From a virus, in IMG/VR virus record IMGVR_UViG_3300040960_002974, positions 1 through 24,643 of that record: a stretch of DNA of 24,643 bases; one strand, 5' to 3'. Each line of letters opens with the position of its first letter. Position 1 is the first letter of the stretch. Below, piece after piece: positions 2,027 through 24,185 of the stretch. The notes under the pieces are model-generated. The model had not been told where the DNA came from. It was given only the letters and a program-made list of their open reading frames with translations, and made no database searches. Made by a program: the position numbers and the translations under genes.

Positions 2027-2632
2027 ATGTCGTTGTTTAATTCAGAAAAGAAATACACTCAATCGGACATCGCACTTTTGCTTGGACTTAGATCTGACAG
2101 GCAAGTGCGAAACCTTATCCAACAAGGGGTGCTGCCAGCTTCGAAAGGTCGAGACGGTATGAACCCATTGGCTTGTGTACATGCTTATATCACCTACAAA
2201 TCTCAGTATAGAAAAGCTGAAGATGAAGCGGAAAACGAAGGGTATGAAGCGGAAGATGATCAAAAGAAACGAGAACAGCAGCTCAAGAATGATGAACGGG
2301 AGGAGCGCATAGCTCTGAACCGCATTAAACGTCTTGTCTTAGAGAAAAAATACGCACCGATTGAAATCATTGATGATGTCGTAGGAGCTGTGGCCGTGTC
2401 GATAAGAACGCGAACAGACTCATGGCTTCCGAAGATAAAGATGGCTTGTCCAGACATCCCCATGCCAGTGCTTGAGCTTTTAAGAAAAGAAATAGCAATG
2501 GTGATCAATGAGCTCTCAGAAGTACAAGTCGATCTCTCAGACTATGAAGACAGCGATATCGAGAGCGGTTTCGCGAGCTTTGAGTCCTCTGAAGATCACG
2601 ATACCAATGACAGGAGTCGAGTGGGCGGATAA
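2027..2632 (+). CDS. terS: Terminase small subunit (lambda Nu1-like)
   Basis: The 201-residue protein has an N-terminal winged-helix DNA-binding region (about residues 10-40, YTQSDIALLLGLRSDRQVRNLIQ), the place where Nu1-type subunits recognise cosB. A Lys/Glu-rich linker and a helical segment with conserved LxLEKKYAP (about residues 105-115) follow. The acidic C-terminus would contact the large subunit. The gene starts immediately after the cos site and overlaps the large subunit gene by 125 bases, both typical of lambda-like terminase operons. It guides TerL to cos so that concatemeric DNA is cut and packaged. The ribosome site is weak (GAGAA about 8 bases upstream of ATG 2027). Confidence 0.9.
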   Translation: MSLFNSEKKYTQSDIALLLGLRSDRQVRNLIQQGVLPASKGRDGMNPLACVHAYITYKSQYRKAEDEAENEGYEAEDDQKKREQQLKNDEREERIALNRIKRLVLEKKYAPIEIIDDVVGAVAVSIRTRTDSWLPKIKMACPDIPMPVLELLRKEIAMVINELSEVQVDLSDYEDSDIESGFASFESSEDHDTNDRSRVGG

Positions 2633-4475
2633 ATATTTTCGCCTTCCTGAAGGTAGTTCTCAGATAGCCGGTGCTTGGGTCACTCAGCCTTTGCAGGTGG
2701 CTCTGCTAAATATGATGACCAACGACACGATAAAGATCGTGGCCATCAAAAAGTCTGCCCGTTTGGGTTACACCAAGATTATGGTTGCAGCCATGCTCTA
2801 TATGGCTGAACACAAAAAACGTTCGAGTGTTATCTATCAGCCAGTCGACGATGAGTCCGACGAGTTCGTCGTTGATGAAATCGATCCAGTGATTGCCGAG
2901 ATGCCTATTATCCAAAAGGTATTTCCAGACTGGTCAACGAAGAACGAAAAGAACAACTCAGGTAAAAAAGTATTCCAAGGTGCCACGTTAGATTTTCGTG
3001 GTGCAACTTCACCAGGTAACTTTCGTCGTTTGACCAAGCAGTGCTTGTTTGGTGATGAAATCAATGGCTGGCCACGAGAAGTGGGTAAAGCAGGCAAAGG
3101 TGAAGGTAACCCTATCAAACTTGCGCTGCAGCGTTTGAAAGGTGCGAGTTTCCCAAAAGCTGTATTTGGTACAACACCAACAGTCGCAGGTGAATCACAC
3201 ATTTCTGATTTGGTGTCAGATGCTGATTTAACATTTCGCTTCTGCTTGCCTTGTCCACATTGTGGCGTGGAGCAAACCTTAGAGTTTGGAGAGGACCAAG
3301 CAGGTCGTAAAGATTACGGCTTACAGTGGGATGATGAGTTAGACACCGTAGAGAAAAAAGCGCGCAGCGCCCATTACGTTTGCTGCAATCAAGATTGCGG
3401 TGAATCTTTCTATTACAACGACCTTACTCAGATGCAGTTAGATGGTCGTTGGATTGCTGAAGATTTGACTTGGACTAAAAACGGCAACGACTTTTATAGC
3501 CATGAAAATTTCCGAGTTACACCACCAAAGCATGTTGGCGTAGAAATCAACGCGCTCTATTCCCTGAACTTAGATGGTTGGGGTGAGCTGGTAGCGGAAT
3601 GGCTGAAAGCTAAAGGTAAGCCGCTTGATGAAAAAGCGTTTATCAACACCGTTCTCGGTCAAGATTACGAAGAGAACAAAGGTGAAAAGCTAGATTCTGA
3701 GGTCTTGGTGGAAAACCGAGAAGCCTACGATGCAGAAGTTCCTGAAGGTGTTCTTTATCTTACAGGAGGCATTGATAGCCAGCTCAACCGTTACGAATGC
3801 TTCGTATGGGGTTGGGGCATCGGTGAAGAGAAGTGGCTCATTGATACCCAAGTGGTTATGGGTGATTACGACAAAGAAGAAACGCTGCGTCGAGTTGATG
3901 ATGTCATTAACAAAACTTACACCAAGAAAGATGGCACCAAGATGGAAGTCGGTCGCTGGTGTTGGGATACAGGCGGCATCGATAGAGAGAAAGTCGATAA
4001 ACGAAGCCAGAAGCATGGCATCTTCCGAGTGATCCCGATTAAAGGTGCAAGTGCTTATGGTAAACCCATAGCTAACTTCCCTCGCAAGCGAAACAAAGAT
4101 GGTGTTTACCACACCGAAGTGGGTACTGATACCGCGAAAGATTTGCTCTATATGCAGATGCTTAACGTGCCAGACGAAAAGTGTGGCGCAGGTGTTATGC
4201 ACTTGCCGTTGAACGATGAAATCTGTGATGAAGTGATTTGTCAGCAAATCGCCTCAGAGAGACTTGTTGAAAAACGAGTGAATGGTAAGCGTGTCATGCG
4301 ATGGGATAACGAAGGTCGACGAAACGAAGCGCTTGATTGCTTGGTTTACGCCTTAGCTGCCTTGCGCATTTCTAAATCAAAGTTTGGCTTGAAACTAGAA
4401 GAATCAGAGCCAAAACAAAAAACAACCAAGAAAGTCGACATTAGTAAGCTCGGCGAACAAATGGGAGCGAATTAA
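2508..4475 (+). CDS. terL: Terminase large subunit (lambda gpA-like ATPase/nuclease)
   Basis: Close kinship to lambda gpA is readable over the whole 655 residues. The P-loop variant KSARLGYTK lies at about residues 82-90 (lambda KSARVGYSK), a Walker B-like LFGDE at 180-184, and a Cys cluster CLPCPHC / CCNQDC at 246-297. The nuclease region has GIDSQLNRYE, WDTGGID, FRVIPIKGAS and the C-terminal RRNEALDCLVYALAALR block. It cleaves at cos and pumps DNA into the procapsid with ATP. ATG 2508 gives an N-terminus of lambda-like length but has a poor ribosome site; ATG 2544 is an alternative. Translation is probably coupled to the long overlap with TerS. TAATG joins it to the next gene. Confidence 0.96.
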   Translation: MSSQKYKSISQTMKTAISRAVSRALSPLKITIPMTGVEWADKYFRLPEGSSQIAGAWVTQPLQVALLNMMTNDTIKIVAIKKSARLGYTKIMVAAMLYMAEHKKRSSVIYQPVDDESDEFVVDEIDPVIAEMPIIQKVFPDWSTKNEKNNSGKKVFQGATLDFRGATSPGNFRRLTKQCLFGDEINGWPREVGKAGKGEGNPIKLALQRLKGASFPKAVFGTTPTVAGESHISDLVSDADLTFRFCLPCPHCGVEQTLEFGEDQAGRKDYGLQWDDELDTVEKKARSAHYVCCNQDCGESFYYNDLTQMQLDGRWIAEDLTWTKNGNDFYSHENFRVTPPKHVGVEINALYSLNLDGWGELVAEWLKAKGKPLDEKAFINTVLGQDYEENKGEKLDSEVLVENREAYDAEVPEGVLYLTGGIDSQLNRYECFVWGWGIGEEKWLIDTQVVMGDYDKEETLRRVDDVINKTYTKKDGTKMEVGRWCWDTGGIDREKVDKRSQKHGIFRVIPIKGASAYGKPIANFPRKRNKDGVYHTEVGTDTAKDLLYMQMLNVPDEKCGAGVMHLPLNDEICDEVICQQIASERLVEKRVNGKRVMRWDNEGRRNEALDCLVYALAALRISKSKFGLKLEESEPKQKTTKKVDISKLGEQMGAN

Positions 4476-4687
4476 TGTCTGCATTATCGGATGCTGAGTT
4501 CCTAGCCGAACTCAAAAAAGCGTATCAACAATTAGTGCTTGGTAAGCAAGCCAAAGTTATCCAAAAAGATGGTCGTCGAGTGGAATACAACCCATCGGAG
4601 CGGCATATCTTGAAAGCGGAAATTGATAGTCTCGAAATGAAGTTGAATAACACTTCGATTCGTCGTCGGCCAGCGAGGTTGTTTTAG
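4475..4687 (+). CDS. Head-tail joining protein, lambda gpW-like
   Basis: This 70-residue protein matches lambda gpW (68 residues) in length, position between TerL and portal, and sequence. It has a helical N-terminus followed by KVIQKDGRRVEY (lambda RVATVQKDGRRVEF), a second helix and a basic C-terminal RRRPARLF. gpW enters the portal channel after DNA packaging and makes the site to which gpFII and the tail bind. Its ATG overlaps the TerL stop (TAATG) and its TAG overlaps the portal GTG, so translation is coupled on both sides. Confidence 0.93.
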   Translation: MSALSDAEFLAELKKAYQQLVLGKQAKVIQKDGRRVEYNPSERHILKAEIDSLEMKLNNTSIRRRPARLF

Positions 4688-6291
4688 TGAAAAACGTTAC
4701 AATTTTGCATCCTAGTGGCCGACCTGCAAGAGAGGTAATCGGCTTTGAAGGAGCTGGTGCAGGCTTTGGTGGTCAAATGGCTAACTGGGCGCCTCAGTTA
4801 ATGACCAATGATGCGGCACTGCTTCCTAATCTCGATTTAACACAGGCGCGAACTGATGATTTGGTTCGTAACAATGGCTACGCTGCAGGTGGATTAAGAC
4901 TCCACTTAGACAACATTGTTGGTCACCTTTTTAAACTTAACTGGAAGCCAATGTGGAAACGGTTAGGTTGGAAGGAGGAAGATTACCGCAAGATAAAAAC
5001 GGATGTGGAGCAGGCTTGGTTAGAGTTTGCTGAAGATGATCGCTGCTTTATCGATGCAGAACGCAAGCGAACATTTACCATGTTGGTTAGAGCGGCTTGT
5101 GCTCAGCATTTTACTTATGGCGATTCAATGGCTGCAGCCGAGTGGATCAGTCGTCGTCATTCTGACTTTAACACTGCTATCAAAATGATATCGCCTAAAC
5201 GAGTGCGAAACCCTGATGGCAATAACTTCTTGAATGAGAAGATTCGTGGTGGCATCAAACACGGACGTCACGGTAATGCTCAAGGTTATTATGTCTCGGA
5301 CCACAAGTACTTACTTCCATTAGCGAATATTAAGCAAAACTTTCGCTATGTACCGCGAGAAACGTGGTGGGGTCGACCTAAGTTTATTCATGTATTTGAT
5401 GCTCAAGATGATGGTCAAAGCCGTGGGCATTCAAGCCTAATGGCTGTCATGCAGCAAATGCACATGTTGGATAAGCTGCAACAAACCAAGCTACAAAATG
5501 CGATAGTCAATGCGATGTATGCCGCCACTATCGAGTCAGAGCTCGACTCTCAATCTGCTTTTGATTTCATTGCTGGCGGTGAAGATTCGCAAGATAAGCT
5601 TTGGCAATGGATGGCAGCGGTGAATAAGTACCATGCTGGTGCCAATATTCGTTTGGATGGTGTGAAAATACCGCACTTGATGTCTGGTGAGAAACTAAAC
5701 CTGCAGCGACCTAGCAATGCAGATAATGGTTTCAATCAACTAGAAGATTCATTTCTTCAATACATGTCAGCAGGCACAGGCTTACCGAAAGAACTCTTTA
5801 CTTATAACTTCCAAAAATCCAATTACTCCAGCGCTCGAGCTTCGCTTAACGAAGGTTGGCGTTACTTTATGGGTAAGCGGAAAGTGATCGCCAGTCGATT
5901 CGCTACCACCATCTTTGCATTGTGGCTAGAAGAGGCGGTAAGCAAAGGTGTGATCAAGCTGCCTAGCGGCACTAATTTTTGGGAAGCTCGCTCAGCTCTC
6001 TGTCGTGCGGATTGGATTGGCTCAGGCCGAATGTCCATTGATGGCGTGAAAGAGATTAAAGAGGCGATTCTTAAAATTGAATCCGGTCTTTCCACTTATG
6101 AAATTGAGTTGGCCAAGATGGGTGAAGATTACATTGAAATCTTTGAGCAGCAACATCGAGAGATGATTATCCGTAAAGAGAAAGGCTTGCCTCCACCTAG
6201 TTGGATGAACGCAGAAGCTTTTGCTCCTGAACAACCTGAACAAGAACAAAACGGAGGTAACAATGCCACCACCACACCTGAGTCAGTTTAA
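4687..6291 (+). CDS. Portal protein, lambda gpB-like
   Basis: The 534-residue length is nearly identical to lambda gpB (533). Family traits include the early ARTDDLVRNNGYAAGGLRLH segment, VVGH/LNWKP-like hydrophobic strands, the stretch GTGLPKELFTYNFQKSNYSSARASLNEGWR, and a polar Gln/Asn-rich tail. It forms the dodecameric ring at one capsid vertex through which TerL translocates DNA. In lambda the N-terminus is trimmed by the head protease encoded next. The start is GTG, one base overlapping the gpW stop. The end overlaps the protease gene by 29 bases. Confidence 0.96.
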   Translation: MKNVTILHPSGRPAREVIGFEGAGAGFGGQMANWAPQLMTNDAALLPNLDLTQARTDDLVRNNGYAAGGLRLHLDNIVGHLFKLNWKPMWKRLGWKEEDYRKIKTDVEQAWLEFAEDDRCFIDAERKRTFTMLVRAACAQHFTYGDSMAAAEWISRRHSDFNTAIKMISPKRVRNPDGNNFLNEKIRGGIKHGRHGNAQGYYVSDHKYLLPLANIKQNFRYVPRETWWGRPKFIHVFDAQDDGQSRGHSSLMAVMQQMHMLDKLQQTKLQNAIVNAMYAATIESELDSQSAFDFIAGGEDSQDKLWQWMAAVNKYHAGANIRLDGVKIPHLMSGEKLNLQRPSNADNGFNQLEDSFLQYMSAGTGLPKELFTYNFQKSNYSSARASLNEGWRYFMGKRKVIASRFATTIFALWLEEAVSKGVIKLPSGTNFWEARSALCRADWIGSGRMSIDGVKEIKEAILKIESGLSTYEIELAKMGEDYIEIFEQQHREMIIRKEKGLPPPSWMNAEAFAPEQPEQEQNGGNNATTTPESV

Positions 6292-7480
6292 CAACCGAGC
6301 GGTACTCATTGATTCACGCCATGTGATGGATGTGCATCATATTCCCGTAGTCAGCACTAAAGGCTTAACACCTGAAGCGGTAGCTTTAAGAACGGGTTTG
6401 AGTACCTCTAGCGATTATAAGCCTTACTCGTTTCAAGATGGCATTGCCATTATTAAAGCCGAAGGCGTTCTTATCCATAACTATGGATGGAGCAGCTCAT
6501 ACGCAACCGGATATGACGTTATCCAACGTAAGCTTCATTACGCATGGCACGACCCTGATGTAAAAGGCATCCTAATGCTTTTCAATACACCAGGTGGCAC
6601 CGTCCATGGTTGTCCTGATACAGGGGATTTAATCGCTCGTGTTGGGAAAGACAAACCAGTTTGGGGCTTGAGCGAAGACATGGCTTACTCGGCTGGTGAA
6701 TGGCTTCATTCTCAGTGTACACGACGCTTTGTTACGCAATCTGCTGGCCTCGGCAGCGTTGGCGCACGAATCACTCATGTCGATATGTCAAAGGCGTATG
6801 AAGAGCATGGATTCAAAGTCACCATGATCTTTGATGGTGAGCACAAAGTGGATGGTAACCCTTTTGAAGCTTTGCCAGAAAACGTTAAAGCCTCATTGCA
6901 GCAAGAAGTTTCAGAGATTCGACAGCAGTTTGCGTCCATGGTCGCAACGGGCACTGGAATGACCCTTGAAGCGGTGCTGGAAACAGAAGCTCAGTGCTAC
7001 ACAGGACAACACGCCGTTGATATTGGTTTGGCTGAATCCGTCGTTAACCGTATCGATTTAATTCAACAATTCATTGAACACCTGCGTAAGCAGGATAAAA
7101 CCAACTTAGCAGGTATCACTATGTCAGTAACAAATGAAGAGATCACTGCTTCAAAGCAAGACGAACGAACTCGCATTAAAGCGATCACTGCTTGTGAAGA
7201 AGCGAAAGGTAAGAGAAAACTTGCAGAGTACCTTGCTTATGAAACGGATATGTCGCAAGAAGAAGCAGTAAAAATTCTTGCGGCCTCGGAAGCTCAAGGT
7301 GCTGCACCTCAAACTCCTGAAACAAAAGCCGATGGCTTTACTCAGGCAATGGGTAGCGAGCAACATCCGAATCTATCCTCCGATGCTGATGACGCGAACG
7401 AAGAAGAGGATGATGAATCACCTCAAGCTATCGCTGCGCGCATGGCAAAATCTCACCAAGCAGCGAAAGGTTATAAATAA
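6263..7480 (+). CDS. Head maturation protease of the S49 (SppA/gpC) family with C-terminal scaffold
   Basis: ATG 6263 follows an excellent ribosome site (GGAGG, 5 bases upstream). A longer frame from 6221 lacks one. The 405-residue protein has a ClpP/crotonase-fold protease: GVLIHNYG near the N-terminus, ILMLFNTPGGTVHG as the oxyanion region, and MAYSAGEW with the likely nucleophilic Ser, then GLGSVGA. The last ~120 residues are Glu/Ala-rich and helical, the lambda gpC/Nu3 arrangement in which the C-terminus also acts as scaffold. It would process portal and scaffold during capsid maturation. An internal start for a separate scaffold lies at 7121. The stop overlaps the next ATG (TAATG). Confidence 0.93.
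   Translation: MPPPHLSQFNNRAVLIDSRHVMDVHHIPVVSTKGLTPEAVALRTGLSTSSDYKPYSFQDGIAIIKAEGVLIHNYGWSSSYATGYDVIQRKLHYAWHDPDVKGILMLFNTPGGTVHGCPDTGDLIARVGKDKPVWGLSEDMAYSAGEWLHSQCTRRFVTQSAGLGSVGARITHVDMSKAYEEHGFKVTMIFDGEHKVDGNPFEALPENVKASLQQEVSEIRQQFASMVATGTGMTLEAVLETEAQCYTGQHAVDIGLAESVVNRIDLIQQFIEHLRKQDKTNLAGITMSVTNEEITASKQDERTRIKAITACEEAKGKRKLAEYLAYETDMSQEEAVKILAASEAQGAAPQTPETKADGFTQAMGSEQHPNLSSDADDANEEEDDESPQAIAARMAKSHQAAKGYK
7121..7480 (+). CDS. Nested scaffold protein (lambda Nu3-like internal start)
   Basis: An in-frame ATG at 7121 sits exactly at the border between protease and scaffold parts, with an AGCAGG ribosome-like site about 7 bases upstream. It would yield a 119-residue, strongly charged helical protein ending in an acidic stretch (NEEEDDE) and KSHQAAKGYK. 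In lambda the equivalent internal start makes Nu3, the bulk scaffold on which the coat shell assembles, in excess over the full-length protease. The position and composition fit well, but internal initiation is inferred from the sequence only. Confidence 0.65.
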   Translation: MSVTNEEITASKQDERTRIKAITACEEAKGKRKLAEYLAYETDMSQEEAVKILAASEAQGAAPQTPETKADGFTQAMGSEQHPNLSSDADDANEEEDDESPQAIAARMAKSHQAAKGYK

Positions 7481-7824
7481 TGGCTCAGACGACTTTAGAT
7501 TATGCTCACTATATCAGTGGCGACACTAACATCGAGCACGCAACGGTTACGATTGCAGCAGGTGAAAATGTTGCTCAGTTTACACCGTTAAAGTTTGATT
7601 CAACGAGCGGTCACTTCAAAGCAATGACTAACGCTGAATCTAATGCTCAGTATTTATCAGCGTTCGCTGTAGATGCGACAAGCGGTGCTAAATCTCACGC
7701 AGCGATCAAAGCGATTGCTATTACTCCTTCTGCAGTTAATTGGCCTGATGGTTTGGCTGAAGAGAAAAAAGAAGGTGTATTCGCTGGTACGCCAATTAAC
7801 GTGCAAGAGCAGCAAGCTGTTTAA
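7480..7824 (+). CDS. Capsid decoration protein, lambda gpD-like
   Basis: The 114-residue product has the gpD hallmarks: an N-terminal HxxG...AHAT-like strand, TPLKFD (lambda TPLMLD), an Ala-rich middle, NWPDG before EEKKEGVFAGTPI near the C-terminus (lambda LWPEA...KKRTAFAGTAISI). Trimers of gpD cap the three-fold sites of the expanded shell and stabilise it against DNA pressure. It lies between scaffold and capsid as in lambda. An intrinsic terminator follows within 30 bases, probably setting its dosage relative to the capsid gene. Confidence 0.93.
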   Translation: MAQTTLDYAHYISGDTNIEHATVTIAAGENVAQFTPLKFDSTSGHFKAMTNAESNAQYLSAFAVDATSGAKSHAAIKAIAITPSAVNWPDGLAEEKKEGVFAGTPINVQEQQAV

Positions 7825-7852
7825 TCTTTCTGCCACTGTTTTCTTAAAAGTA

Positions 7853-7878
7853 AAAGCCGCTATTTGAGCGGCTTTTTT
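7853..7878 (+). terminator. Intrinsic terminator between decoration and capsid genes
   Basis: A 9-bp perfect stem, AAAGCCGCT (7853-7861) with AGCGGCTTT (7867-7875), has a 5-base loop and six T. The capsid ribosome site GGAG begins four bases after the T run, so any transcript ending here stops just before the capsid gene. Confidence 0.88.
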
Positions 7879-7894
7879 CATGGAGTCTATTTTT

Positions 7895-8926
7895 ATGTAT
7901 AGCCCTGTTGCTACCGCAGTGTTGATTGCACTGCACCAAACGCTACCACCTCAATATGAGCCAGCGTTAAAGAAGTTCTACGTCAAAGGCATTGTCACTT
8001 TTAACACTTCAGAAGTGCTTTTCGACAAAATCAAGAAAGGCCGCAAGCTAGCTCCGCTAGTTTCACCAATGGTTTCTGGTAAACCTCAACGTGCGAAATC
8101 AGCAGTTCAACAATCCATTACGCCAGCTTACGTTAAGCCAACAGATGCAGTGACATCTGATCGCTTAATGAAACGCATGCCTGGTGAACGTCCACTGGGT
8201 GACTTAACGCCAACTCAACGTCGTGAAGCTATCATTTCAGATATGCTCATGGAGTTTGATGCATCCATTGAACGACGTGAAGAGTGGATGCTTGTTCAAA
8301 TGCTTACCACTGGTCGTGTAGTGCTTGAAGGTCCAGACTTTGAAGCAGTAGAAATCGACTATGGTCGAAGTGCTAAAAACCAAGTGACGTTGATTGGTGC
8401 TGATTGTTGGGATCAGCTGGATAAAGATACCAGCACCAAGCCTCTCGAAGACATTGAAGCTTGGGCTGATAACTGTAATTCACTGGCCGATCACGTTGCA
8501 ATGTCCAAGTCGAATTGGTCTTTGTTAAAGCAGTTTAAGTGTGTCAAAGACATCATGGATACTCGTCGTGGTTCTAAGTCTAACGGTGAGCTTGGCCCAC
8601 TTAATAACCAAGCATTTAAGTGGGTTGCAACGGTTGGTGAGTATGAAATTTATGTATCCAATGGTACGTATGAAAACGACGCTGGCGTGGATACGAAGTA
8701 CTTCCCAGATAATGGTGTTCTAGTTGGTTCATCGGCTGCTGAGATTTACATGGCTTATGGCGGTATTCAAGACGTCAAAGCGAATGCTCAGGGCATTGTT
8801 GAAACAGAGCGTTATCCGTCGAACTGGTTCCAAGATAACCCATCGGTAGAAATGCTGCAGATGCAATCAGCGCCAGTGCCTGTCATGTTTGATGCAGATG
8901 ACTTCTGTTTCGCAGCAGTGCGTTAA
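7895..8926 (+). CDS. Major capsid protein, lambda gpE-like
   Basis: The product is 343 residues from ATG 7895 (lambda gpE 341). This start is favoured over ATG 7880 because GGAG lies 9 bases upstream and MYSPVATA matches lambda MYTTAQLL in position. Readable family blocks are VSPMVSGKPQR, TPAYVKP, RRREAIIS/LMEFDASIERREEWM, VEIDYGRSAKNQVT, DTRRGSKS, YFPDNGVLVGSSAA, YGGIQDVKANAQGI, RYPSNWF and MLQMQSAPVPVMFDADDF. It forms the icosahedral shell. Terminators lie directly before and after, isolating it as a separately tuned transcript segment. Confidence 0.97.
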   Translation: MYSPVATAVLIALHQTLPPQYEPALKKFYVKGIVTFNTSEVLFDKIKKGRKLAPLVSPMVSGKPQRAKSAVQQSITPAYVKPTDAVTSDRLMKRMPGERPLGDLTPTQRREAIISDMLMEFDASIERREEWMLVQMLTTGRVVLEGPDFEAVEIDYGRSAKNQVTLIGADCWDQLDKDTSTKPLEDIEAWADNCNSLADHVAMSKSNWSLLKQFKCVKDIMDTRRGSKSNGELGPLNNQAFKWVATVGEYEIYVSNGTYENDAGVDTKYFPDNGVLVGSSAAEIYMAYGGIQDVKANAQGIVETERYPSNWFQDNPSVEMLQMQSAPVPVMFDADDFCFAAVR

Positions 8927-14543: not shown

Positions 14544-16022
14544 ATGGCAAGATTCCTCCATGGCGCAGAAGTTATTGAAGTTAATGACGGTGTGCGCTCA
14601 ATCTCAACGGTCAAAATGGCGGTTATCGGTATTGCAGTGCAATCAGCGATGGCAGCAGGCGCAGTTGCTGCGACGCTAACGCTCGGATCTTCTGCTTTGG
14701 GTGATGACCTTACATTTACAGCTAAAACTGCTGGGCAAGATGGTAATAAAATTAATATTACGATTGCTGAAACGACTGAAGCCAGTCAGGACATTGTCGT
14801 TTCGGTGGCTGGTGATGCTATTACCATCACACTTGGAACCGACGCACAAGGTGACACCATTAGTAAAGTCACCGACGTAGTCACTGCCTATGAAGCAGTG
14901 CCAGAGGCGCTGGCCAAAGCACTTATTAGCACTTCAACTGAAGCGGCTAAAGCTGAAATTCCCTCAGCAATTAACAAGCAGTTCTTAGCAAGCGGTGCGA
15001 ATGAACCCTTCCCACTCTATAAGCCGACATTAGTGCTTGGTAATGAGCGTTATGCGGAAGGTCTCGGTGTTACTTCTCAGGCTTACAAATACATCAAGCA
15101 AATCATGGAGCAGTATGGTGCTGTGGTTGTTGTGGTTCGCGCTGAAACCTCAGCCGATGAAGCGACTCAAAAGTCCAACATCATCAAAGCTATCGATGCG
15201 CTTAAAGATTCGAAGTCAGAAGTAGGCTATACGCCTCGTATCCCGATTGCACCTGGTTACAGTCACGACGACGCCGTTGGTAAGGCATTGGAAAGTGCAG
15301 CGGTTAAGCTTCGTGGTGTTGCCTATCTGGATATGGATGTTGCTGCCACGTTCACTGATGCGATGAAGCGCGTGAAATCATACAACGATCGTGTGGAAAT
15401 TATGTGGCCACAGGATGTGGTGTTTGATACGGACCTAAACACGAACGTGCCAATGCCTAAATCGGTATCCGCAGCAGGCTTGCGTGTGCGTATTGATGAA
15501 GAGCGCGGTGTTCACGTATCTAAATCGAACAAAGACATCTACAACGTTGTGGCGACCAATCAGCAGGTCGAGTTCTCATTAAATGATGCGAGCACACTGG
15601 CCAACATTCTTAACGAAAACCGAGTGAGCACTACGATTCGTGAAGGCGGTTTCCGTCACTGGGGCAACCGTACCTGCGCTATTGATCAGAAGTGGACGTT
15701 TGAAACTACTCGTCGTGTTGCTGACATGATTAATGACAGCATTGAACGTGCGCACATGTGGGCAGTCGATGAGCCAGGTACCACTCAATACATGCAAGAT
15801 GTGCTTGGTGGTATCAATGCTTATCTTCGTCAGTTGAAAAACGAAGGTGTTATCCCGGGCGGTAGCGCATGGCTCGATAAAGAACTCAACACGCCAGAAC
15901 TTATGGCTCAGGGTATTTACTACTTTGATTTTGACTTTGGTGTTTACTATCCGGCAGAGCACTTGATCTTCCGCTCTCGCCTCAACAATGGCTATTTAGA
16001 AGAGGAAATTGCGAATGTCTAA
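14544..16022 (+). CDS. Tail sheath protein, P2 gpFI-like, with inserted domain
   Basis: The ends match P2 FI: HGAEVIEVNDGVRSISTVKMAVIGI at the start, then FPLYKPTLVLGN, GYTPRIPIAPGYS, LRVRIDEERGVHVSKSN, GGFRHWGNRTC, AHMWAVDEPGT, DVLGGINAYLRQLKNEG and YYFDFDFGVYYPAEHL. Sheath subunits contract to drive the tube into the cell. It has 492 residues against 396 in P2. The surplus is one block at about residues 36-152, Ala/Thr/Val-rich with alternating strands (LTFTAKTAGQDGNKINITIA, DIVVSVAGDAITITLGTDAQGDT). It probably forms an extra outward domain. Confidence 0.94.
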   Translation: MARFLHGAEVIEVNDGVRSISTVKMAVIGIAVQSAMAAGAVAATLTLGSSALGDDLTFTAKTAGQDGNKINITIAETTEASQDIVVSVAGDAITITLGTDAQGDTISKVTDVVTAYEAVPEALAKALISTSTEAAKAEIPSAINKQFLASGANEPFPLYKPTLVLGNERYAEGLGVTSQAYKYIKQIMEQYGAVVVVVRAETSADEATQKSNIIKAIDALKDSKSEVGYTPRIPIAPGYSHDDAVGKALESAAVKLRGVAYLDMDVAATFTDAMKRVKSYNDRVEIMWPQDVVFDTDLNTNVPMPKSVSAAGLRVRIDEERGVHVSKSNKDIYNVVATNQQVEFSLNDASTLANILNENRVSTTIREGGFRHWGNRTCAIDQKWTFETTRRVADMINDSIERAHMWAVDEPGTTQYMQDVLGGINAYLRQLKNEGVIPGGSAWLDKELNTPELMAQGIYYFDFDFGVYYPAEHLIFRSRLNNGYLEEEIANV

Positions 16023-16521
16023 TTGGGCTCGTAAATATCAAGGCTTATATGCTGATGGTCGAGAGAAAATCGCAAGCCTACTAGAATACACCCCACCGGT
16101 ACCGACCGTGATTACGGAAGATTTTCGTGCTGGTGGTATGGATATGCCTATTTCTATGGATATGGGGATGGAAAAGCTCGAATCGAGTTTTACCATAGGT
16201 GAAGATCCAGACATCTTAGGATTGTTTGGTATCAAGCAGGACGCAAAACAGGTGTCGTTTTTTATCCGTTCTCACTTGGAAAATGATATTACAGGTGAAC
16301 AGAAAACGGTTATTGAAGAGCTTCGCTGTAAAGTTGTTTCTATTGACATGGGAACAAAAACAGCAGGTAGCTTCTCACCAACCACTGTGACGCTTAACCC
16401 TATGTACTACAAGTACGAATCGGGCGGAAAAGTCATTTGGGAACTTGACCCAATCAACATGGTTCGCATCATTAATGGCGTGGACCAGCTCGCTAAAGCG
16501 CGAGCTTCTCTCGGTAAATAA
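16015..16521 (+). CDS. Tail tube protein, P2 gpFII-like
   Basis: ATG 16015 is used, 8 bases inside the sheath gene end, with GAGG 9 bases upstream. At 168 residues it is close to P2 FII (172). Recognisable are the MDMPISMDMGMEKLESSFTI strand, DILGLFGI, VIEELRCKVVSIDMG and the C-terminal YYKYESGGKVIWELDPINMVRIINGVDQLAK. It polymerises into the inner tube through which DNA passes. It follows the sheath gene as in P2 and is closed by an intrinsic terminator. Confidence 0.94.
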   Translation: MSNWARKYQGLYADGREKIASLLEYTPPVPTVITEDFRAGGMDMPISMDMGMEKLESSFTIGEDPDILGLFGIKQDAKQVSFFIRSHLENDITGEQKTVIEELRCKVVSIDMGTKTAGSFSPTTVTLNPMYYKYESGGKVIWELDPINMVRIINGVDQLAKARASLGK

Positions 16522-16535
16522 TTTCTTTCAATATT

Positions 16536-16564
16536 AGCCCTGCCAATTTCGGTAGGGCTTTTTT
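16536..16564 (+). terminator. Intrinsic terminator after the tube gene
   Basis: AGCCCTGCC (16536-16544) pairs with GGTAGGGCT (16551-16559) with one G-U pair, a 6-base loop and a six-T run. The following gene starts within 20 bases. Confidence 0.87.
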
Positions 16565-16581
16565 ATGTGGCGAATATCATC

Positions 16582-16884
16582 ATGGAAACTATCAAACTCG
16601 ATTACCCAATTAAGCACGACGACAAAACTATCAGCGAAGTAGAAGTCCGACGTCCTAATGTTCGTGACCATATTTGGTTGGATCATCAATCGGCAGCAGC
16701 AAAACGCTCAGGTAAGACGCTTGATGAAGTGGAGAAAGATGCAGAGCTTTATGCTCGTTTGTGCGATCTGTCTGTTGAAGCTATTGGTAAGTTGGATATG
16801 CAAGACTGGGGAAAGTTGCGCAAGTTTTATCTCGAGTGCGTCGTTCCCTCCAAGAGCTCAACGCAAGCGACAGAGACTGCTTAA
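16582..16884 (+). CDS. Tail assembly chaperone, P2 gpE-like (unshifted product)
   Basis: The 100-residue protein from ATG 16582 reads METIKLDYPIKHDDKTISEVEVRRPNVRDHIW, matching the L-x3-PI...G/K-x2-EVxxRRP-x2-D pattern of P2 gpE-type tail assembly chaperones. GTG 16567 is an alternative start, but no good ribosome site is visible for either. The protein coats the tape measure before the tube polymerises. A slippery heptamer at 16809-16815 lets part of the ribosomes shift to a second frame (separate entry). Its place between tube and tape measure is as in P2. Confidence 0.9.
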   Translation: METIKLDYPIKHDDKTISEVEVRRPNVRDHIWLDHQSAAAKRSGKTLDEVEKDAELYARLCDLSVEAIGKLDMQDWGKLRKFYLECVVPSKSSTQATETA

Positions 16885-16994
16885 TTTTTAAGTTAGCCAC
16901 CCATACTGGCTGGCAACCCTCGGAGATAGAAGCGCTCGATATGGAGCGCTTTTTCTTTTTTGTAGAACAAATGCCAAAGAAGGCGACTAAATGA
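16582..16994 (+). CDS. Tail assembly chaperone E-E' fusion made by -1 frameshifting
   Basis: After Lys78 of the E-like protein the sequence G GGA AAG (16809-16815) is a canonical X XXY YYZ slippery site. It is the same heptamer known for lambda G/GT. The -1 frame is open from 16791 to the TGA at 16992-16994 and adds 59 residues, giving about 137 residues. The added part contains THTGWQPSEIEALDMERFFFF, which looks like the conserved tail of P2-type E' proteins. The E' frame has no good start of its own. Its TGA overlaps the tape-measure ATG (ATGA), so frameshifting may also couple tape-measure translation. Confidence 0.85.
16930..16961 (+). terminator. Intrinsic terminator embedded in the E' coding region
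   Basis: A perfect 8-bp stem AAGCGCTC / GAGCGCTT (16930-16937 with 16944-16951), 6-base loop and TTTTTCTTTTTT tail. It lies inside the shifted E' frame, whose T tail encodes a run of Phe, and just before the tape measure gene. Confidence 0.75.
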
Positions 16995-18679
16995 GCGCAG
17001 CCCAACATCTAAAATCGGTGGTCACGCTCGGTGGGGCCGTGGACCCATCATTTAAAAACATGGCTAGTGAGGTGGATAAACACCTCGGTAGCGCCACCAA
17101 AGAAGTAAAAACGCTTGAGCGTGAGCAGAAGAATCTCACTAAACAAATCAAGAAAGCTAAGTTAGCCGGTGCCGATGTTTCTCTTTTAACGAAACGATAC
17201 GACAAGCTTGGTGATGAAATAGACCAAGCCAGTCGAAGTGCCGAAGGGTTTCAAGCCGCCAGCGATTTAAAAGGCAGTTTGAAGTCAACCGCCACTTATG
17301 CTGCAGCGACAACTGCAGGCTTAGTTGGTGTTACTGGGTCCGTCATCGCATTAACCAGTGCGACGAATGCAGCCACAGCAGAGCAGGCAGGATTTGCTAA
17401 AGCCTATGGCATGAGCATAGAGCAGTTTAATGCTTGGGGCGGTATTGCAGCTCAAGCAGGGCTTAATGCGGAGAATACCGGTGATCTTGTTGAAGAACTG
17501 ACTAATAAATTTGGCGAGTTCAAACGGTTTGGTGAACAGTCATCTGTTTCTGATGTGTTTGGAGCGCTTGGTATTGACGCCGCCATGATGGATGGCCTGT
17601 CAGCAGCCGAACAGTTTGAGTTTGTGATGCGTCGCCTTGAGAAAGTAGGTGATGCTCAGCAAGCCGCATCTTTAGCGGATATGTTGTTTGGTGGTGAGGG
17701 TAACAAGGTTGTCACTTACATCAAGAACTCGGGGAAAAGCCTCAATGAGCTTCTTGATGCTCAGAAAGCCATAAACAATCTGACGCAAGAAGGTGCAGAC
17801 GGAGCGTTAAAGTACAATACTGCTTTAAATTCAGTCACAAAATCGATGTACACAGCATGGCAAGATGTTGCTGGTGTTGTTGGTGGTGAAGTTGCTCCTG
17901 TCTTTGATGACCTATCGATAAGTGTTAGCTCTTTTGTTCGAGAGAACAGAGCAGAGATCATCGACTTTCTAAGCAGTGCTGTTGAAGGTTCATTGGCGTT
18001 CGCACGAGGTGTATTCACGCTCGGCAGTGCGGTTAATGATGTTGTCCAAGTTTTTGGCGGTTGGGAGACTGTTGCTGCAGGTGTTGCTGGCTTAATGGCT
18101 GGCAAGATGGTTGTTGGAGTTGCAGGTGTTGTTTCCGGTATCGGAACAATGGTCACCACGCTTGGTGCTGCTAAAACCACTATGTTGGGTCTTAATGCCG
18201 TTATGGTAGCAAACCCTATTGGTGCTGTTGCTGCAGCAGTGGGTTTATTGACTGCTGCAGGTGTTGCTCTTTATCAAAATTGGGATGCTGTTAAAGAGTG
18301 GTTTGAACCGTTCTTTGGTTGGTTCGAGGCTAAGTGGCAAGGTTTCCTTGAGCTTGGCGAAAAAGCCAAAGGCATGCTCAAGTCCGTGACTGGCTTCTTG
18401 GGTTTTGGTGAAGGTGACCAAGGTTCCTCTCAAGGCTCTACGGGTTACTACGGTGGTCATACTCAAAACGCACCAAGCTCTTATGGTTATGGAGCAAGAG
18501 CGCAGGCCGCAAATCAAAGCACGTATGCTGCAGCTGGTGGTAATACTGTTCACCAGAAAGTAGAGAAAATCGAAATACACGCTGCGCCTGGTCAATCCTC
18601 AGAAGATATTGGTAAAGAAGTGGCCAGCCGACTAGGTGGAGAGCAAGATGCGATGTTTGACCTCGCTATGGGGGATTAA
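16991..18679 (+). CDS. Tail tape measure protein, P2 gpT-type
   Basis: The 562-residue protein has a coiled-coil N-terminus (about residues 25-80, EVDKHLGSATKEVKTLEREQKN). A helical body and a strongly hydrophobic stretch with Gly/Ala/Val helices (about residues 355-430) follow. A Gly/Ser/Tyr-rich low-complexity linker (about 475-520) and a conserved C-terminus (HQKVEKIEIHAAPGQSSEDIGKEVASRL) complete it. It sets tail length; at roughly 0.15 nm per residue this predicts a tail of about 80 nm. P2 gpT is 815 residues, so the tail should be shorter than that of P2. It follows E/E' with ATGA overlap and joins the U-like gene by TAATG. Confidence 0.92.
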   Translation: MSAAQHLKSVVTLGGAVDPSFKNMASEVDKHLGSATKEVKTLEREQKNLTKQIKKAKLAGADVSLLTKRYDKLGDEIDQASRSAEGFQAASDLKGSLKSTATYAAATTAGLVGVTGSVIALTSATNAATAEQAGFAKAYGMSIEQFNAWGGIAAQAGLNAENTGDLVEELTNKFGEFKRFGEQSSVSDVFGALGIDAAMMDGLSAAEQFEFVMRRLEKVGDAQQAASLADMLFGGEGNKVVTYIKNSGKSLNELLDAQKAINNLTQEGADGALKYNTALNSVTKSMYTAWQDVAGVVGGEVAPVFDDLSISVSSFVRENRAEIIDFLSSAVEGSLAFARGVFTLGSAVNDVVQVFGGWETVAAGVAGLMAGKMVVGVAGVVSGIGTMVTTLGAAKTTMLGLNAVMVANPIGAVAAAVGLLTAAGVALYQNWDAVKEWFEPFFGWFEAKWQGFLELGEKAKGMLKSVTGFLGFGEGDQGSSQGSTGYYGGHTQNAPSSYGYGARAQAANQSTYAAAGGNTVHQKVEKIEIHAAPGQSSEDIGKEVASRLGGEQDAMFDLAMGD

Positions 18680-22063: not shown

Positions 22064-23020
22064 TTAGAATTTTTCTAACGCTTCATTTGACAAGGTCTTA
22101 TCAATAAATTCCTCAATGGCCTTTAGCGAGTCATCTGAAACCTTTGGAATATTGATCGTAGCGTTGCCATTCTTTAATGCGACCGTGGCCCCCATTGCCA
22201 GCTCGCGAGGTTTCATTGGTTCAGGCTTGCTAATGCCACATTTCTTAATGAAGAATCCCACCAACTCCTCAGCGTTGTATTTTCCTTTCTCTTTACACCA
22301 CGCTTCAAAGAAAGTGATCAACCCATCCTGTTGCTGTTCATCCAGTTTTTTGTATGCTTTGAATAGCGTTTCACCTTGTCTGGCGCTCAAGTCATTAGGG
22401 CTAGGTAAAGCTTTGATGAATGGCTTAGGAAGCATAGCGGTGTACACTTCTCGCATCATTGCACGACGACCTTTACCTACAGCCACGGATGCTTCCTCTT
22501 GGCTTTTGCCACTATTCAATAAACGTAATGCCTTTTGACCTTGTTCATATGCCGAGGTTGGTCGGTAATTGTTGCCGACTTCGCTCAGGTAATTCATCTG
22601 ATCGTCTGATAGGTCGCCAACCCAAATATAAAAGTCACTCTTTGCTGTTATGGCAGTAAAACGACGTCGGCTACCGTCAGCTACCTGAATAACACCACAC
22701 TCTTCACGGCCGAAAGCGGGTACTTCTTGTCCGTACTCTTTAAATGTTGGCAAAATGTCTGAAATGGCGAATTCATCGAGTAGCTCTTGATCACGCTCGT
22801 TCTCTAGCCAAACCATGGTCGATAGGTCGACTTTTTTGGCAGGAATCTTCTTGAGCGTAAAAGTAACTTCGACGCCCTTAACAGGCTTAGTGAGTGTGTT
22901 TCCTACCTGTTCGTCTAGCTTTTCAGATACTTTTACAGGTGCGCTTTTGTCGCGCTTACCTCTGATTCGAACCGTTGAGACGCTGGACTCTTTTATTTCA
23001 ACATTGAGATCGTTTTTCAT
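22064..23020 (-). CDS. parB: Partition protein ParB (P1 ParB / F SopB type)
   Basis: The 318-residue length matches SopB (323). A basic, flexible N-terminus is followed by the ParB N-domain with the diagnostic box ADGSRRRFTAI at about residues 114-124 (the arginine patch that binds CTP in this family). Then come the helix-turn-helix part SGKSQEEASVAVGKGRRAMMREVYTAML and a C-terminal dimerisation region with strand-helix ATINIPKVSDDSLKAIEEFIDKTL. ParB loads at parS and stimulates ParA ATPase to separate plasmid copies. The start lies one base after the parA stop, with GGAGG inside the parA end, so the two are translationally coupled. The parS site is not certain. Confidence 0.94.
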   Translation of the reverse strand: MKNDLNVEIKESSVSTVRIRGKRDKSAPVKVSEKLDEQVGNTLTKPVKGVEVTFTLKKIPAKKVDLSTMVWLENERDQELLDEFAISDILPTFKEYGQEVPAFGREECGVIQVADGSRRRFTAITAKSDFYIWVGDLSDDQMNYLSEVGNNYRPTSAYEQGQKALRLLNSGKSQEEASVAVGKGRRAMMREVYTAMLPKPFIKALPSPNDLSARQGETLFKAYKKLDEQQQDGLITFFEAWCKEKGKYNAEELVGFFIKKCGISKPEPMKPRELAMGATVALKNGNATINIPKVSDDSLKAIEEFIDKTLSNEALEKF

Positions 23021-23021
23021 G

Positions 23022-24185
23022 TTATTCAGCCTCCCACATCGGTTTTAAGATAGTGTCTAGAATCTCATTGAATGGTGCGTCATAAATTGCCGTTGCACGT
23101 TTCCAAGCTGCTGGAGAGCTTCGCTCAGATGCGCCATTTTGCTCGTAGATAGTGACGCCCTTGCGTTGACCTTTCCCCACTTCATCGGTGAAGTAAACGC
23201 CGCTGTTTAGTGGCATTCCGCTCCAGAATCGGTGCATGTCCTGCACGTTCTTTAGGCTTGAGCTGTGTTCAGCACCTAGTTTGGTCGGTAATACGCGCAC
23301 ATATGGCTCGTCTAGCTGCTCTGGACCGTTAGGCTGGTATATATCTCGAATCAACCCCATAAGCTGGCAAGTCGAGTTCATGTCGTTCACTTCGGCAGAT
23401 GTTGCGATAAGTACCACATCGCTTGCGCAGATCATATTGGTTGTACCTAGACCCAAATCAGGGTGGCCATCAATGATGATAACGTCGTAGCTATCTTGCA
23501 CAGTCATTAGACCGGCTCGTAACATTTGGTCGGCTGGATATTCGATATCCGCATCAAGCAGTTCGCTTTCGATACGCTGCAGCTGCAGGTTGCTTGCGAT
23601 GATCTCTAGCTTTGGCCATGCAGTTTCGTTTATGCAGTATGTTAAGTCGTCTTTCTCGCCTAGCATGAACGGCAGTACCGTGTCGTTCACATCGGTATTC
23701 AGCTCAGGATGGTAGCCGAAGTACATCGAACCGTGCGCTTGTGGGTCGATGTCAACGAATAGAACGCGATAGCCTTTTAGTGATAGCCATTGCGCCAGAT
23801 GCACGGCTGTCGAGGTTTTCCAGCAGCCTCCTTTACCACCAGGAACTGATACCGTGATTGGGTAGGTTTCCATTACCTGGTAGGGCTGCTTTTTAAATAC
23901 GTCGCGCATATGGTCGATTTGGGCCAGCGTGTAACCTAATCGGATTGGACGAGGTGAGTTGGATTCCTTGTATTCCGGTTGCGGCAGGCGACCTTCTTTC
24001 TCGGCCTTGCGGATAGCTTCGCTTGTAACACCAATCATGTCTGCAGCTTCATTTATACCAAAGCGACGATTTAGAACTCTGGCTTGTGGCGAGTCATCAC
24101 CAAACTTCTTCTTGGCTCTTGCTCTTGACCAGTCGTTGAATGAGTCGATGCACGCCTGCATCTGCTCAGAAAGTGTTTGTGACAT
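23022..24185 (-). CDS. parA: Partition ATPase ParA (P1 ParA / F SopA type)
   Basis: The 387-residue size is that of large type Ia ParA proteins (P1 ParA 398, SopA 388). An N-terminal DNA-binding region with helix-turn-helix INEAADMIGVTSEAIRK (about 44-60) is followed by RPIRLGYTLAQIDHMRDVF. The deviant Walker A motif GGKGGCWKTS is at 116-125, Walker A' VLFVDIDPQ at 141-149, and Walker B-like VIIIDGHPDLG. It moves ParB-bound plasmids over the nucleoid and, in this class, represses its own promoter through the N-terminal domain. Ribosome site GGAGA precedes ATG 24185. A sigma70-type promoter with repeated GTTTGC motifs lies just upstream. Confidence 0.96.
   Translation of the reverse strand: MSQTLSEQMQACIDSFNDWSRARAKKKFGDDSPQARVLNRRFGINEAADMIGVTSEAIRKAEKEGRLPQPEYKESNSPRPIRLGYTLAQIDHMRDVFKKQPYQVMETYPITVSVPGGKGGCWKTSTAVHLAQWLSLKGYRVLFVDIDPQAHGSMYFGYHPELNTDVNDTVLPFMLGEKDDLTYCINETAWPKLEIIASNLQLQRIESELLDADIEYPADQMLRAGLMTVQDSYDVIIIDGHPDLGLGTTNMICASDVVLIATSAEVNDMNSTCQLMGLIRDIYQPNGPEQLDEPYVRVLPTKLGAEHSSSLKNVQDMHRFWSGMPLNSGVYFTDEVGKGQRKGVTIYEQNGASERSSPAAWKRATAIYDAPFNEILDTILKPMWEAE

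Follow-up and report, generated by a model that had tools for sequence, protein, structure and literature searches.

A lambda-type GGGAAAG slippery heptamer in a P2-type tail assembly chaperone gene with a predicted -1 frameshift product

The tail gene region and the E/E' overlap

The DNA analysed here (the window) comprises positions 1–24,643 (24,643 bases) of the IMG/VR virus record IMGVR_UViG_3300040960_002974. By Pfam and PHROG assignments, its tail genes follow the order sheath, tube, E/E', tape measure, U, X and D, which is that of the F operon of P2, and the features around gene E are listed in Table 1. Two overlapping reading frames are found between the tube and tape-measure genes, as in the chaperone frameshift genes of tailed phages. 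The first, E, starts at ATG 16582 (an alternative in-frame GTG is present at 16567), ends at TAA 16882–16884 and encodes a protein of 100 aa (11.5 kDa). This protein passes the cut-off of Pfam PF10109 (56.5 bits versus 25; E-value 2.8e-15), a family described by Pfam as 'phage tail assembly chaperone proteins, E, or 41 or 14'. Comparison of the E profile with solved structures gave no real match.

Table 1. Features of the E/E' region and the adjacent tail genes (window coordinates).
Feature	Position	Strand	Evidence
FI-like tail sheath protein	14544..16022	+	Pfam PF17482; phrog_23, E 4e-95
FII-like tail tube protein	16009..16521	+	Pfam PF04985, E 3e-36
E, tail assembly chaperone, zero-frame product	16582..16884	+	Pfam PF10109 TAC_7; phrog_166
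-1 open frame	16791..16994	+	Frame analysis; E' profile match
Slippery heptamer G_GGA_AAG (zero frame), predicted to re-pair as GGG_AAA in the -1 frame	16809..16815	+	Sequence; conserved in L016–L019
E' part, translated after the predicted shift	16815..16991	+	Within -1 frame; TGA 16992–16994 overlaps tape-measure ATG
E' segment past the E stop, where only the -1 frame is coding	16885..16991	+	Third-position differences from L016
T, tail tape-measure protein, start overlaps E' stop (ATGA)	16991..18679	+	phrog_3654, E 2e-138; several tape-measure PHROGs

The original prediction was that this gene uses the GGGAAAG heptamer of phage lambda, and the elements it relied on were read in the sequence as claimed. 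The codons of E at 16807–16815 are TGG GGA AAG, giving G GGA AAG in the E frame. The -1 frame opens just past a TAA (16788–16790) and closes on the TGA that covers the tape-measure ATG. Read through the heptamer, the predicted fusion includes TGWQPSEIEALDMERF, and recomputation returned the same length of 137 aa. GGGAAAG is the sole in-frame heptamer in E, and a P2-type T_TTT_TTG is absent from the end of E in the window.

The label 'P2-type' given to the gene holds for the tail, by protein family and gene order, but not for the phage as a whole, which is a mosaic of lambda-type head genes (terminase, portal, S49 protease), a capsid-E-type coat protein, the P2-type tail, and ParA/ParB-like genes (window 2508–8926; 22064–24185, minus strand). 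The ParA/ParB-like genes suggest a phage-plasmid life style. No tRNA genes were found in the 24,643-nt window. A terminator-like hairpin with a T-run lies between the tube gene and E (16536–16566). Similar hairpins lie no more than 90 nt before E in 21 of the 63 genes compared, versus 7 of 573 random stretches, and the hairpin may reduce expression of E and the tape-measure gene relative to the tube gene.

Conservation of the heptamer and the -1 frame

The window's clade includes four non-identical homologues, with E proteins 95% (L016), 57% (L017), 43% (L018) and about 40% (L019; 39–41%) identical to that of the window. All four carry G_GGA_AAG at identical codons, together with a -1 ORF containing the motif TGW/TSW-xxSEIE, so the slippery heptamer is conserved in the right phase inside the overlap. 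In L016, L017 and L018 the following ATG shares bases with the E' stop, as in the window. Among the 20 degenerate invariant columns of the five E genes, only four retain a single codon; these are a His, an Asp, and the adjacent GGA and AAG, and GGA accounts for 11% of the Gly codons in the window. L018 has GTG (Val) in place of TGG ahead of GGA, so that the residue differs but the heptamer still begins with G. Beyond the E stop, the window and L016 differ at six positions, all of them third positions of the -1 frame. These comparisons indicate that both the heptamer and the -1 frame are under selection. The original prediction had staked itself on both being conserved in relatives, as they are in L016–L019.

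The sister pair to this clade, L009 and L020, keeps the -1 frame and E'. At the homologous codons (L009, 2230–2290; L020, 2230–2310) both read TAC ACA AAG TGT, i.e., C_ACA_AAG, and no X_XXY_YYZ heptamer was found in their E/E' genes, which counts against the frameshift reading. Their -1 frame opens two codons before the AAA, and the simplest guess is that slippage possibly takes place on the A_AAG tetramer.

Identity of the E' part

The -1 product had been described as E'-like, and this was borne out by profile comparison. An alignment of E' from the window's family matched an alignment of P2-type E' sequences that includes P2 itself (hhalign probability 95.9, E 5.6e-9, 40 columns), and the product is thus E'-like in a broad sense. 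The curated PF06528 model, considered as a direct label for E', was rejected; with an E limit of 10 it detected neither the window's product nor those of L017 and L018, while P2's own E' scores 78 bits against it.

Predicted frameshifting and alternative explanations

With high confidence, E/E' can be regarded as encoding a P2-type tail assembly chaperone whose expression involves programmed -1 ribosomal frameshifting at G_GGA_AAG. In this Vibrio-type phage, two tail-assembly proteins are very probably made from the one gene, by some ribosomes slipping back one base. The majority of ribosomes would read the zero frame to its end and produce gpE (100 aa). We infer that a minority slip at the heptamer, where the tRNA-Gly on GGA would re-pair with GGG and the tRNA-Lys on AAG with AAA; these ribosomes would continue in the -1 frame and produce gpE-E' (137 aa). 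If lambda gpG/gpGT is a guide, the tape-measure protein, encoded by the next gene, would be bound by the N-terminal part common to both products. The E' part would bring in tube subunits, and the shift rate would determine the gpE:gpE-E' ratio. The G_GGA_AAG sequence is highly shift-prone in E. coli (PMC5009743), and GGGAAAG is the slippery sequence of gpG of TP901-1 (PMC4493119).

Downstream RNA structure was considered as a stimulator and rejected. The folds in the 70 nt after the heptamer were weak and differently shaped among the heptamer-bearing genes, with z-scores from -2.2 to about 0 (window, -1.5; L016, -2.2; L017, -1.5; L018, -0.04; L019, -0.4), and none was conserved. By eye, no Shine-Dalgarno-like stimulator was seen upstream of the heptamer. 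Neither result gives a basis for predicting the shift rate. Two of the experiments that had been proposed for the site need modification. The change of GGGAAAG to GGAAAAG, intended as synonymous, replaces Gly with Glu, and the suggested GK-VAQV peptide would be lost in mass spectrometry with trypsin, which cleaves exactly at GK|V; a peptide spanning the shift requires another protease or a missed cleavage.

An independent start of E' within the -1 frame, at GTG 16836 or later, with E' made as its own protein and the heptamer incidental, is very improbable. L016 and L018 have a GTG at the corresponding position, and the record of Vibrio phage Valp1 annotates the E' part as its own CDS. However, no Shine-Dalgarno sequence precedes GTG 16836, the codon is TTG in L017, and it is absent from L019, where the first candidate start falls within the TGW motif. 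Retention of GGA AAG at the codon level, and the fused arrangement in the annotation of P2, also argue against a separate start.

A fortuitously open -1 frame without frameshifting was assessed by synonymous shuffling, with the E protein held fixed and the codon usage of the window. GGGAAAG arose in the stretch in 4.2% of shuffles, and GGGAAAG together with a -1 frame open to the E stop in about 0.7%, a frequency at which one window alone is not proof. The chance of a further 36 open codons past the E stop is about 11%. Across the 29 ORFs of the window there are 21 in-frame X_XXY_YYZ heptamers, and only that of E has a -1 frame passing the stop of its gene, defined as more than 20 nt beyond it; in E it runs 110 nt. 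The window contains three copies of GGGAAAG, at the E site, at 6644 and at 1722. The copy at 6644 is in an ordinary frame and out of slippery phase; that at 1722–1728 is a second slippery-frame G_GGA_AAG, in a DUF7940 gene (1693–1914), and looks incidental, its -1 frame closing after 13 codons. A chance origin of the E/E' overlap is untenable because homologues down to 39% identity keep the heptamer, the -1 frame and the E' motif, and the third-position bias in the -1 frame also speaks against it.

Joining of the two frames by RNA polymerase slippage, which occurs in some viruses and bacteria (PMC5009743), can be set aside with similar assurance, as GGGG followed by AAA is short of the usual homopolymer run and the phase of the heptamer is exactly that required for two tRNAs to slip in tandem.

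Comparison with known E/E' and G/GT genes

The heptamer scan was controlled with known sites, and scans of the same kind returned GGGAAAG for lambda G and TTTTTTG for P2 E. Both precedents named in the original prediction were thereby confirmed, lambda G/GT using GGGAAAG and P2 E/E' shifting at a T-run, the latter in agreement with published work (PMC3091744, PMC3931495). The P2 slip site is conserved in P2-like phages of Burkholderia and Stenotrophomonas (PMC3091744, PMC3931495). The window shares with P2 E/E+E' the site between the tube and tape-measure genes, the two domains, the -1 shift (predicted in the window) and the overlap of E' with T (PMC3931495, PMC3091744). It differs in the site itself, which is T_TTT_TTG in P2, whereas the G_GGA_AAG of the window is displaced about nine codons upstream when the two are aligned (DWGK versus the terminal F-L).

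Lambda G/GT has an identical heptamer and phase and agrees in gene position and inferred role (PMC5009743), but its T part extends much further, 416 nt beyond the G stop compared with 110 nt past the E stop. E of the window matches the P2/Mu-type TAC_7 family by Pfam and PHROG, and is not an obvious relative of lambda gpG. An analogue is gpG/gpGT of Vibrio phage phi 2 / X29, a Vibrio myophage in which the counterpart is likewise a TAC_7 protein with an annotated -1 fusion (PMC5690320); its heptamer, unlike that of the window, is TTTTTTG. The closest isolate phage by protein is Vibrio phage Vb_VaM_Valp1 (34%). Its E/E' gene and those of its relatives have the same layout as the window, but the heptamer is GGGTTTT at the C-terminal G-F, and E' is annotated separately, unlike the reading proposed here. 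Gene 41 of Mu has no X_XXY_YYZ heptamer in the overlap, and no E gene was picked out in K139 or HP1 as comparators.

Exchange of slippery sequences among P2-type E genes

The overlaps of 63 distinct E genes, obtained from searches centred on the window's family and not a random sample, carry T6N (27), GGGTTTT (16), GGGAAAG (9), AAATTTT (4) or none of these (7). T6N, GGGTTTT and AAATTTT are placed at the end of E (at F-L, G-F and N-F, respectively), and in the window's clade GGGAAAG lies about nine codons before these sites, at D[W/V]GK.

A second lineage with G_GGA_AAG was found among Vibrio-type prophages, represented by L062 (from a Vibrio-genus genome, reverse strand) and L090–L092 (IMG/VR), where it is read as TTG GGA AAG. 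No match to this lineage was found among 50,697 phage records. Its sister genes keep T_TTT_TTG in TGT TTT TTG, while in L062 and L090–L092 the T-run has been silently erased to TGT TTC CTA, retaining Phe-Leu, and a change from Gln-Lys to Gly-Lys 18 nt upstream of the former T-run has created GGGAAAG. By parsimony, T6G is ancestral in this lineage. In a tree of E built without the site and everything after it, the second lineage is placed far from the window's clade, and the starred branches require GGGAAAG to have arisen at least twice; only 68 columns were available, and other parts of the tree are weak. Judged from these sequences, the slippery sequence has been exchanged at least twice within the P2-type E family.

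Programmed -1 frameshifting of tail assembly chaperones has long been known, and the window is one more case. The new part is evolutionary, namely the independent heptamer swap within P2-type genes indicated by the comparison. No report of GGGAAAG in a P2-type E gene was found in the papers searched; an earlier listing (e.g., Xu et al. 2004, Christie et al. 2002) is possible. A broader proposal, to which we give about even chances, is that P2-type E/E' genes readily change the sequence and position of the slip site while keeping the fusion, and that the gpE:gpE-E' ratio, rather than the site, is under selection. The lineages of the window and of the second Vibrio prophage group would each have acquired GGGAAAG at a point upstream of where the T-run usually lies, and L009 and L020 may use the A_AAG tetramer alone. 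Sister genes with the same layout but different heptamers serve as a natural experiment on how the chaperone ratio is set.

Searches of P2-like phages for T6G only will miss E/E' fusions; several records leave E' unannotated or call it a separate gene. The records of Enterobacter phage Arya, Escherichia phage HeidiAbel_Bas97 and Serratia phage MQ-4 (L050–L052) and of Acinetobacter phage Alexa (L053) contain no E' CDS. The overlaps of all four carry AAATTTT in the slippery frame, and E-E' fusions appear to have been missed in their annotation.
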